Below, piece after piece: positions 48,569 through 52,169 of a stretch of DNA of 64,000 nucleotides. Position 1 is the stretch's first letter. Every line of letters begins with the position of its first letter. The position numbers and the translations under genes were made by a program. The DNA comes from Alterinioella nitratireducens (GTDB lineage: Bacteria; Pseudomonadota; Alphaproteobacteria; Rhodobacterales; Rhodobacteraceae): assembly GCF_013155465.1 (NCBI RefSeq), contig NZ_JABJVX010000008.1, positions 124,001 to 188,000 of the forward strand, written 5' to 3'. The notes below the pieces were generated by a model. The model made no database searches. It saw only the letters and a program-made list of their open reading frames with translations, and had not been told where the DNA came from.

Positions 48569-49579
48569 ATGACCAGACCCCCGCTCACATCCGATCGCGC
48601 CATGACCGCCCGCGCGGATTTCGCGCCGCTGATCACGGACGCCCGCAACCCCGGCACCGCGCTGGACCTCGATTGGGTCGCCTCGGTGCAGGCCAATACC
48701 TCGGCCATCGAACGCCGTGCCGCGACCCTGCCGGGACGGCGCAGCGTGAAGAAGGACTACCAGGCCGCATGGCTGGCGCGCGCGATTTCCTGCATCGACC
48801 TGACCACTCTGGCGGGCGATGACACGCCCGGACGGGTGCGGCGGCTTTGTGCGAAAGCGCGCCAACCCGCGCGGGCCGAGATTCTGGACGCCATCGGCCT
48901 GCCCGACCTGACCGTCGGCGCGGTCTGCGTCTATCACGACATGATCGCGCCTGCCGTCGAGGCGCTGGAGGGCTCGGGCATTCCCGTCGCCGCCGTCTCC
49001 ACCGGGTTTCCGGCGGGCCTGTCGCCCTTCCACCTGCGGGTGCGCGAGATCGAGGAGAGCGTCAAGGCGGGTGCCGCCGAGATCGACATCGTGATTTCGC
49101 GCCGCCACGTGCTTACGGGCGATTGGCAGGCGCTCTATGACGAGATGAAGACCTTCCGCGCGGCCTGCGGCGAGGCGCACGTCAAGGCGATCCTGGCGAC
49201 GGGCGAGCTTGGCACGCTGCGCAATGTCGCACGCGCCAGCCTCGTCTGCATGATGGCCGGGGCCGATTTCATCAAGACCTCGACCGGCAAGGAAAGCGTC
49301 AACGCCACCCTGCCCGTCAGCCTCGTGATGATCCGCGCCATCCGCGCCTACGAGGCCGCGACGGGGTTCCGGGTGGGCTACAAGCCCGCGGGCGGCATCT
49401 CCAAGGCCAAGGATGCGGTGACATATCTGGCGCTGATGAAGGAGGAGTTGGGCGATCCGTGGCTTCGGCCCGACCTTTTCCGCTTCGGCGCGTCCTCGCT
49501 GCTTGGCGATATCGAGCGGCAATTGGAACACCACCTGACCGGGAGTTACTCGGCGGGTTGGCGGCATGCGATGGGGTGA
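48569..49579 (+). CDS. deoC: deoxyribose-phosphate aldolase
   Basis: This 336-residue enzyme splits deoxyribose-5-phosphate into acetaldehyde and glyceraldehyde-3-phosphate. The Schiff-base lysine is K236 in DFIKTSTGK, and the second lysine lies in GYKPAGGI. It is the longer, eukaryote-like DeoC form with an N-terminal extension of about 70 residues. It starts an operon with a small gene and an aldehyde dehydrogenase that could oxidise the acetaldehyde to acetate. Confidence 0.95.
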   Translation: MTRPPLTSDRAMTARADFAPLITDARNPGTALDLDWVASVQANTSAIERRAATLPGRRSVKKDYQAAWLARAISCIDLTTLAGDDTPGRVRRLCAKARQPARAEILDAIGLPDLTVGAVCVYHDMIAPAVEALEGSGIPVAAVSTGFPAGLSPFHLRVREIEESVKAGAAEIDIVISRRHVLTGDWQALYDEMKTFRAACGEAHVKAILATGELGTLRNVARASLVCMMAGADFIKTSTGKESVNATLPVSLVMIRAIRAYEAATGFRVGYKPAGGISKAKDAVTYLALMKEELGDPWLRPDLFRFGASSLLGDIERQLEHHLTGSYSAGWRHAMG

Positions 49580-49584
49580 GTGAG

Positions 49585-49812
49585 ATGATCACTTCGATTG
49601 CCCATCGCCTGATTGAGAACAATCCCAAGAAGGCAGCACGCTTACAGCGCGCGGGCGTATTTTATGATGAGATACGAGAAATGTGTGCGCTGGTAAGAAA
49701 GTCACACCGGGATGCAAATCCACAGATCACTGACGATGACATAAATGGGCTCCGGATGCTGGACGAGATGATCCAAGATGATGTCGTCGCACTCTTGAGT
49801 GACGGAGACTGA
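49585..49812 (+). CDS. small AT-richer hypothetical protein inside the deoC operon
   Basis: This 75-residue acidic, helical protein (MITSIAHRLIENNPKKAARL ... LDEMIQDDVVALLSDGD) has no recognised domain. It starts 5 bases after the deoC stop and ends 5 bases before the aldehyde dehydrogenase start, so it is probably translated with both. By hand count its G+C is 114 of 228 (50%), well below neighbours, and its codon use (AAT, AAA, AGA, ATA) is unlike theirs. This suggests an inserted foreign gene that kept the operon in frame. Confidence 0.7.
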   Translation: MITSIAHRLIENNPKKAARLQRAGVFYDEIREMCALVRKSHRDANPQITDDDINGLRMLDEMIQDDVVALLSDGD

Positions 49813-49817
49813 AACAG

Positions 49818-52169
49818 ATGACCATCCCCGAGATTTTCGAGACCATGGACTACGGCCCCGCCCCCGAGAGCGACGCCGAGGCCCGCGCGTGGATCGCCAG
49901 GCATGAAGGCCGCTTCGGTCCCTTCATCGGCGGCAGCTTCGCCAAGCCGGGCGAGACATTCGCCACCCGGAACCCCGCCACGGGCGAGACGCTGGCGCAG
50001 GTCACGCAAGGCACCACCGAGGATGTGGATGCTGCCGTGAAAGCCGCCCGCAAGGCCTTCCCCGCCTGGTCCAAGCTGAGCGGCCACCAGCGCGCCCGCC
50101 ATCTCTATGCGCTGGCACGGCTGTTGCAGAAGCATTCGCGCCTTTTCGCCGTGCTGGAGAGCATGGATAACGGCAAGCCGATCCGCGAGAGCCGGGATAT
50201 CGACGTGCCCCTGGCGCAGCGGCATTTCTACTATCACGCCGGTCTGGCGCAGTTGCGCGATGCCGAGGTGCCCGACCACTCCCCGCATGGTGTCTGCGGC
50301 CAGATCGTGCCGTGGAATTTCCCTCTGCTGATGCTGTCCTGGAAGATCGCGCCGGCGCTGGCGGCGGGCAATACCGTGGTTCTGAAGCCCGCCGAATACA
50401 CCTCGCTCACCGCGCTTCTCTTCGCCGATATCTGCGTCGAGGCGGGGCTGCCCAAGGGCGTCGTCAATATCGTCACCGGCGACGGGGCGACGGGGGCGGC
50501 GCTGGTCGATCACCCGGATGTCAACAAGATCGCCTTCACAGGCTCCACCGATGTGGGGCGCAAGCTGCGCGAGGCGACGGCGGGGACCGGCAAGGCGCTG
50601 ACCTTGGAGCTTGGCGGCAAGTCGCCCTATATCGTGTTCGATGACGCCGATATCGACAGCGCGATCGAGGGGCTGGTCGATGCGATCTGGTTCAACCAGG
50701 GTCAGGTCTGCTGCGCGGGCTCGCGCCTTCTTGTGCAGGAGGGGATCGCCGAGGATTTCCACACGCGGCTCAAGGCCCGGATGGCGAAACTGCGCGCGGG
50801 CGATCCGCTGGACAAGAGCATCGACATCGGGGCCATTGTCGATCCGGTGCAACTGGACCGGATCAAGGCGCTGGTCGGCGGCAATGAGGACGGTGAGACC
50901 CATCACGCCCCCATCGACCTGCCCGCCAAGGGCTGTTTCTACCCGCCGACGTTGATCACAGGACTTTCCTCAGCCTCGCACCTGATGCAGGAGGAGATCT
51001 TCGGACCTGTCCTCGTCTCCACCACCTTCCGCACGCCGGGCGAGGCGGTCGAGATCGCCAACAACACGCGCTACGGCCTGGCCGCGACGCTCTGGACCGA
51101 GAATGTGAACCTGGCACTGGACGTGGCGCCCAAGCTGGTCTCGGGCGTGGTCTGGGTCAATGCGACCAACCTTTTCGACGCGGCGGCGGGCTTTGGCGGC
51201 GTGCGCGAAAGCGGGTTCGGGCGCGAAGGCGGATGGGAGGGGCTGGCGGCCTATCTCAAGCCCGATATCGCGACGAAAGCGGTGAAACCGGCCAAGCCCG
51301 CCGATCCCGCGCAAGAGGAATTTACCGGCATCGACCGCACCGCCAAGATGTATATCGGTGGCAGCCAAGCCCGGCCAGACAGCGGCTATTCGCGGCCCGT
51401 GACCTCGCCCAAGGGCAAGATCCTCGGCCATGTCGGCCTTGCCAACCGCAAGGATCTGCGCAACGCGGTCGAGGCCGCGAACAAGGCCGCCGGCTGGGGC
51501 AGGACCACCGGGCATCTGCGCGCGCAGATCCTCTATTACATGGCCGAGAACCTGTCGGCCCGCGGGGGTGAGTTTGCCTCCCGGATCAGCGATCTGACGG
51601 GAGCCACGGCCAAGACGGCGGCGGGCGAGGTCGAGATGAGCCTCGACCGTCTCTTCACCTATGCCGCCTGGGCCGACAAGTTCGACGGGGCCGCCAAGAC
51701 GGTGCCCATTCGCGGCGTGGCGCTGGCGATGAACGAACCGGTCGGCACCATCGGCGTCTTCTGCCCGGATGAGGCGCCGCTGCTTGGCCCCATATCCCTC
51801 ATGGCGCCTGCCGTGGCGATGGGCAACCGGGCGATCCTTGTGGCCAGTGAAAGCGCGCCGCTGGCCCTGACCGACCTCTACCAGGTGCTGGACACCTCGG
51901 ACCTGCCCGGCGGAGTCGTCAACATCCTGACCGGACAGCATGGCGAGTTGGCCACGCAGATGGCCGGTCACATGGATATCGACGCGGTCTGGAGCTTTTC
52001 CGCCGCCGACATTTCCAGGACCATCGAGAAGGCGGCTGCGGGCAACCTCAAGCGGACCTGGGTCAATCACGGGCGCAACCCCGACTGGACCACTCCGGCG
52101 GGCGAGGGCAAACGCTTCCTTCAGGCCGCGACCGAGGTCAAGACGATCTGGGTGCCCTACGGCGAATAA
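49818..52169 (+). CDS. aldehyde dehydrogenase with a second, catalytically dead half-domain
   Basis: This 783-residue protein has a full NAD(P)-dependent aldehyde dehydrogenase domain at residues about 30-480, with general base E264 in LELGGKSP and nucleophile C298 in GQVCCAGSR. Residues about 500-783 repeat the NAD-binding half (EPVGTIGVFCPDEAP; PGGVVNILTG) but stop before the position of the catalytic cysteine. Similar long ALDHs are found next to deoC in related bacteria. It most likely oxidises the acetaldehyde from DeoC. The second part may be structural. Confidence 0.9.
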   Translation: MTIPEIFETMDYGPAPESDAEARAWIARHEGRFGPFIGGSFAKPGETFATRNPATGETLAQVTQGTTEDVDAAVKAARKAFPAWSKLSGHQRARHLYALARLLQKHSRLFAVLESMDNGKPIRESRDIDVPLAQRHFYYHAGLAQLRDAEVPDHSPHGVCGQIVPWNFPLLMLSWKIAPALAAGNTVVLKPAEYTSLTALLFADICVEAGLPKGVVNIVTGDGATGAALVDHPDVNKIAFTGSTDVGRKLREATAGTGKALTLELGGKSPYIVFDDADIDSAIEGLVDAIWFNQGQVCCAGSRLLVQEGIAEDFHTRLKARMAKLRAGDPLDKSIDIGAIVDPVQLDRIKALVGGNEDGETHHAPIDLPAKGCFYPPTLITGLSSASHLMQEEIFGPVLVSTTFRTPGEAVEIANNTRYGLAATLWTENVNLALDVAPKLVSGVVWVNATNLFDAAAGFGGVRESGFGREGGWEGLAAYLKPDIATKAVKPAKPADPAQEEFTGIDRTAKMYIGGSQARPDSGYSRPVTSPKGKILGHVGLANRKDLRNAVEAANKAAGWGRTTGHLRAQILYYMAENLSARGGEFASRISDLTGATAKTAAGEVEMSLDRLFTYAAWADKFDGAAKTVPIRGVALAMNEPVGTIGVFCPDEAPLLGPISLMAPAVAMGNRAILVASESAPLALTDLYQVLDTSDLPGGVVNILTGQHGELATQMAGHMDIDAVWSFSAADISRTIEKAAAGNLKRTWVNHGRNPDWTTPAGEGKRFLQAATEVKTIWVPYGE

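Follow-up and report, generated by a model that had tools for sequence, protein, structure and literature searches.

Poorly conserved genes lodged inside conserved operons have been described in the Roseobacter clade. A proteogenomic study of Ruegeria pomeroyi, in the part available to us, reported non-conserved genes within sucCD and sdhCDAB; their products were detected, and some of them were co-transcribed (PMC3305630, 2012). Such operon-inserted genes were regarded there as characteristic of some Roseobacter genomes; in the part accessible to us, it was left undecided whether they are of use to the host or opportunistic. A literature search for small genes at junctions of deoC with aldehyde dehydrogenase genes found no relevant report.

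The small gene analyzed here is located in a 64-kb stretch of DNA, referred to as the window, between two enzyme genes oriented in the same direction (+ strand). The upstream gene deoC (48569..49579) encodes a DeoC/LacD-family aldolase, recognized by a Pfam match (DeoC, PF01791, E 7.3e-19) and by inspection of the sequence. The downstream gene (49818..52169) encodes an aldehyde dehydrogenase of 783 amino acids with two stretches matching Pfam Aldedh (PF00171, E 3.6e-191), apparently a tandem fusion. Acetaldehyde is released by DeoC-type aldolases and would be oxidized by the dehydrogenase, so that the pair is plausible as an operon for deoxyribose catabolism. Names of the marine Roseobacter group are borne by the records related to this locus through DeoC. 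The open reading frame in between (49585..49812, +) comprises 75 codons, starts with ATG and encodes a protein with a pI of 4.99. It is flanked on both sides by conserved, co-directional enzyme genes at an operon-like spacing of exactly 5 nt, namely GTGAG (49580..49584) after the deoC stop codon and AACAG (49813..49817) ahead of the dehydrogenase start. An ORF scan indicated a GTG (49576..49578, +) as an alternative start, which overlaps the deoC stop codon (GTGA) and would yield 78 instead of 75 amino acids; either start may be used. The protein is probably small, acidic and soluble with a predicted, mostly helical fold; an AlphaFold2 model built from the single sequence was poor (pLDDT 54.5, pTM 0.33).

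By eye, the G-rich end of deoC, GGGGTGA (49573..49579), resembles a Shine-Dalgarno site and is followed by GTGAG and the ATG. A GGAG in the tail of the ORF (49804..49807, +), 10 nt upstream of the dehydrogenase ATG, may be a ribosome-binding site now serving the dehydrogenase. A first-pass annotation of this DNA had described a clean insertion between deoC and the aldehyde dehydrogenase gene which preserves co-translation. The clean insertion and the preserved spacing of 5 nt on each side were found exactly as described; the co-translation itself, that is, translation coupled through all three genes, we infer from the sequence. A 6-bp direct repeat, AGATGA (49583..49588 and 49816..49821, by eye), flanks the insert; it was discounted as weak evidence of an insertion mechanism because three of its six letters are the start codons.

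The composition of the ORF was found to be as foreign-looking as the same annotation had claimed. Its G+C content is 0.500 as compared to 0.682 for deoC, 0.665 for the dehydrogenase gene and 0.664 for the 64-kb window, and among 5315 sliding 228-bp segments of the 64 kb, a G+C content as low was found in a fraction of only 0.00056. Other patches in which 228-bp segments have a G+C content of ≤0.53 occur only at and upstream of a presumably cold-shock-like gene and across the junction of two genes which we take to encode ATP synthase subunits. The codon score of 0.449 is below the scores of all 47 naively called ORFs of the window, some of which are probably spurious, the lowest of them reaching 0.521. 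G+C contents at the three codon positions (0.61/0.34/0.55) are coding-like; the GC3 value of 0.55 compares to 0.86 for deoC and 0.85 for the dehydrogenase gene. Upon mononucleotide shuffling of the 238-nt gap, a frame with both start and stop located ≤12 nt from the flanking genes appeared in 476 of 200,000 shuffles. A chance ORF was rejected, since the codon-position pattern, the fit to the neighbors and the shuffle rate are all contrary to it. Its composition, its codon pattern and the way it fits between its neighbors speak for a real gene, which was probably acquired; a composition unlike that of the host is expected of a horizontally acquired gene.

Searches for homologues were carried out at several levels. 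Within its own genome, the ORF matched itself and one stretch with 22% identity (E 0.1) in an ATPase of the CpaF type. Among 394 genomes of the family, including its own, only two more rows were obtained (E 0.002 and 0.009), both inside CpaF-type ATPases; among 385 genomes of the class, a set which includes the own genome and some of the same family and partly overlaps with the family set, there was no other match at E 0.001. Pattern scans of genomic and viral contigs, a method reaching close relatives only, confirmed no homologue. Plasmids gave no match to the protein at E 1, and the phage matches, among 20 of 34 records listed, had E-values of 0.6 or worse and covered 36–72% of the query. 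Pfam and PADLOC returned no match; those in PHROG (E 0.2–0.3) and NCBIfam (E 0.033) are at chance level. Four rows of solved structures, named OPG035 or P1L (E 0.17–0.44), were taken as chance matches. An RNA element was discarded, the single Rfam row having an E-value of 0.57 and 14.8 bits as compared to a gathering score of 82, and so was a tRNA integration site, ARAGORN having found zero tRNAs in the window. Across the collections searched, no convincing homologue was found, neither close by nor in another lineage that might have served as donor. Because neither donor nor homologue was found, it is the composition that points to a horizontal origin, and the foreign origin is deduced from sequence.

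The junction was then compared among relatives. DeoC was detected at E 1e-80 in 341 of the 394 family genomes. The 216 loci most similar to the DeoC of the window were used, which biases the sample; after 20 identical duplicates and 2 loci lacking a dehydrogenase in the stretch had been dropped, 194 distinct junctions remained, counted with near-identical species (e.g., L162, L178, L188, L199, L203) uncollapsed. The gap is ≤20 nt long at 65 junctions, 21–100 nt at 71, 101–200 nt at 14, 201–450 nt at 37, and longer at 7. An insert of ≥180 bp is present at 46 junctions, every one with a forward ORF of ≥40 codons, although three of these inserts (L019, L107, L124) look by eye repeat-derived rather than like genes. 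The ORFs fell into 14 blastp clusters, a grouping in which L037 is linked to the most common family, family A, through a fusion (L044), and L106 and L151 are joined to it as well; the window ORF is the sole member of its cluster. Kinship with other occupants of the slot was rejected, the best blastp match having an E-value of 0.04 over 14 residues. The window gene is absent from the other 193 distinct junctions, its own genus being represented by one genome in the sample. The first-pass annotation had named its presence in all relatives with the same composition as evidence against an insertion; instead, the other 45 inserts of ≥180 bp are unrelated to it, and the remaining 148 of the 194 junctions leave too little room for it. 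The annotation had also regarded such an insertion as unusual, which does not hold: almost one quarter of the junctions (46 of 194) carry an insert of this size.

Start and stop positions of the inserts follow certain preferences. Among the 65 short gaps, 31 measure 3–4 nt and 15 form a second peak at 10–11 nt. An in-frame ATG lies ≤20 nt from the deoC stop codon in 30 of the 46 inserts, and in 18 of the 46 the first ATG is found 3–4 nt after deoC. The most common start of an insert thus coincides with a frequent dehydrogenase start of empty junctions, both being located 3–4 nt after deoC. Furthermore, the stop codon of the insert overlaps the dehydrogenase start by 4 nt in 29 of 46 cases. The slot is not uniform, as 16 of the 46 inserts have no near ATG and the short gaps have a second peak.

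A dehydrogenase tree was calculated with FastTree only, 32 of its 191 inner branches being well supported, and labeled by hand (family A, 22 rows; B, 5; C, 5; other, 14; rest, 148), with all gaps of <180 bp labeled empty. Of the three rows nearest to the window genome, L038 carries a different small ORF with 50% G+C in a flank of 59%, L145, named Nioella, has a 154-bp gap with only a mechanically called ORF of 53 codons, and L036 has a gap of 16 nt. The 14 assorted inserts required 14 changes on the tree, at least 9 of them forced by well-supported branches, as compared to an average of 13.7 for shuffled labels; 14 changes for 14 rows describe scatter, not a measured rate. The 22 rows of family A required 11 changes, 3 of them forced, as compared to 21.2 with shuffled labels. 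Judged by these counts against shuffled labels, family A is partly inherited, whereas the other inserts are scattered. In G+C content, the 22 rows of family A differ from their flanks by a mean of only −0.006; the deviation from the flanks is greater for the 14 assorted inserts (p 0.0007, Mann-Whitney test).

The occupants themselves are diverse. Family A, the most common one by hand labeling, has hydrophobic stretches and a host-like G+C content; further occupants are family B, a DUF1272 protein (PF06906), an HTH_3 protein (L136) and several singletons. One occupant (L010) has a weak, below-cut-off match to Mrr_N, which is absent in its relative L303. Relatives of L010 were found in 3 other of 248 family genomes. 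L303 also resides at a deoC-dehydrogenase junction, so that related small genes occupy it in two genera other than that of the window; L302 adjoins a DNA methyltransferase gene and has a stop codon within the matched stretch; L304 lies away from such a junction. The L302 and L303 proteins matched zero Pfam or PADLOC families at E 0.01. These findings may bear on a possible source pool of slot genes, not on the window gene. For the protein of L037, relatives occur in 5 further genomes among 248 of the family: L306 lies at a deoC-dehydrogenase junction, the other four elsewhere. L306 belongs to the genome of L044 and is fused there to a family A protein; in L044, a family A ORF is in frame with a module homologous to the separate junction gene of L037. 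As compared to the window gene, the other occupants (family A, family B, DUF1272, L010/L303, L136) share the slot and are of similar size, and they often lie at a similar distance from deoC and overlap the dehydrogenase gene; a sequence relation to the window protein was undetectable in a comparison made without L303. Additionally, an element resembling GTATTT...AAGAAG was seen by eye at the junctions L009, L011, L016, L023, L050 and L019. In L019 it has the look of an inverted repeat. The element is perhaps an intergenic repeat occurring throughout the family; a looser version of it is matched once in the window (36928).

Two other operons were inspected as controls. hisA and hisF were more than 180 bp beyond their tightest spacing in 11 of 24 family genomes as compared to 2 of 11 genomes from other families, with G004 and G397, where the two genes are separated by 26 kb and 137 kb, respectively, counted as interrupted. 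For sucC-sucD, the numbers were 16 of 23 and 3 of 12, for pairs hand-picked from the strongest matches and with genomes lacking exactly two matches on one contig excluded. Within the family, both pairs were thus interrupted more often than deoC-dehydrogenase in the sample of relatives; gap content was skimmed in 20 stretches with naive ORF calls, and an excess distance need not represent a gene in each case. The deoC-dehydrogenase junction is not special, since other operons of the family are interrupted also, and the published part of the Roseobacter record accessible to us contains the precedent of sucCD and sdhCDAB (PMC3305630). Both pairs are spread in the genome of the window itself, sucC-sucD by about 1.36 kb beyond the tightest spacing (G000:C40:76557-79122) and hisA-hisF by about 0.57 kb (G000:C3:84273-86255; L281/L282 stretches for both). 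In another genome, the hisA-type match of G022:C111:9509-10185 is split over two rows, perhaps by a frameshift or a sequencing error.

We consider it probable that the ORF is a real small gene which this lineage acquired from outside, has been kept at a junction tolerant of small genes and is carried by the expression of the operon. It would be the middle cistron of the deoC-dehydrogenase operon. Ribosomes ending deoC may re-start at the ATG 5 nt downstream by means of the G-rich deoC end, which would serve the dehydrogenase in relatives with an empty junction, its start site having been taken over by the ORF; the tail of the ORF with GGAG, stop codon and 5-nt gap would then lead the ribosomes on to the dehydrogenase gene. 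Selection, rather than a site-specific integrase, would account for the precise fit, as inserts which keep the downstream enzyme translated would survive. The small acidic protein would be made together with the deoxyribose-catabolic enzymes and need not work with either.

A native origin, either from a non-coding insert turned into an ORF or from an older resident diverged beyond recognition, appears unlikely. Raw material exists at 85 of the 194 junctions, which have gaps of 21–200 bp (content unclassified), membrane-type resident families fill the slot in many relatives, and a donor was not found; however, a G+C content of 0.50 and a GC3 of 0.55 are unlike the local DNA (0.66) and unlike family A, which matches its flanks, and similarity to the other occupants does not exceed chance. 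The first-pass annotation had suggested an anti-phage, antitoxin-like or regulatory gene, and we regard an antitoxin, an anti-phage protein or a phage-derived regulator as improbable. In favor of such a role, the ORFan is small, acidic and AT-rich, and among the other occupants, L010 weakly matches Mrr_N and has a relative adjoining a DNA methyltransferase gene, while L136 contains an HTH_3 domain. These ideas found no support in the searches of Pfam, PADLOC, PHROG, NCBIfam, plasmids and listed phage records given above: no defense family domain was detected, and instead of an adjacent partner the adjoining genes encode metabolic enzymes.

Even less probable is that the protein assists DeoC or the dehydrogenase as a functional partner, e.g., as a small regulator or adaptor in the metabolism of deoxyribose or acetaldehyde. 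The operon position and the close spacing on both sides would suit such a role, but in relatives with the same two enzymes the slot is either filled by a different small ORF or lacks one, and a required partner would be conserved. Hardly any credence is given to the idea that the ORF is a displaced fragment similar to the N-terminal domain of CpaF/TadA, as we presume the matched pilus ATPases to be. Every sub-threshold match, in the own genome as in two others of the family, lies within this domain, and with a profile of 30 sequences the window ORF scored 10.4 bits, a value exceeded by 1 of 2000 shuffles. That profile, however, was picked post hoc as the best from whole proteomes, identities are 22–28%, and the match within the own genome is the one at E 0.1; the domain was not accepted, as the profile had been chosen after the fact and its match was not significant.

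Beyond acquisition of a single gene, we tentatively propose, as a possibility less likely than not, that the junction, in common with others of this family, acts as a permanent docking slot for translation, at which the G-rich deoC end, normally serving to start the dehydrogenase, re-starts any ORF landing there and occupants are exchanged over time. This would fit the most common start and stop positions, which survival of harmless inserts could equally explain. If it is true, incoming unrelated genes would be expressed at once, the window gene would be a recent arrival, and gene birth and turnover inside operons would become directly testable. The junction survey outweighs the single gene: different small genes have entered one spot of a conserved operon, with start and stop positions which often preserve coupling to the downstream enzyme. 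Occupied junctions form a ready-made series in which to study how new genes come to be expressed.

The survey extends the phenomenon described for Roseobacter TCA-cycle operons in 2012 to a gene pair of deoxyribose catabolism and, judged only by the distance between genes, to histidine genes. Like the inserts in sucCD and sdhCDAB, as far as the accessible part of that report describes them, the window gene is poorly conserved, is flanked by conserved enzyme genes and comes from the same broad clade (PMC3305630). Unlike these inserts, whose proteins were detected, it lies in a deoC-aldehyde dehydrogenase operon, is known from sequence and, by the same partial account, differs in being strongly AT-rich relative to its host. 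ORFan or 'alien' operon genes, as outlined in the part of a review available to us (PMC10138114), likewise have no homologues in close relatives and reside in operons of unrelated function; that general notion differs from the present case, in which one junction has many different occupants within one family. The window gene is one more ORFan lodged in an operon, of a kind already known in the Roseobacter clade.
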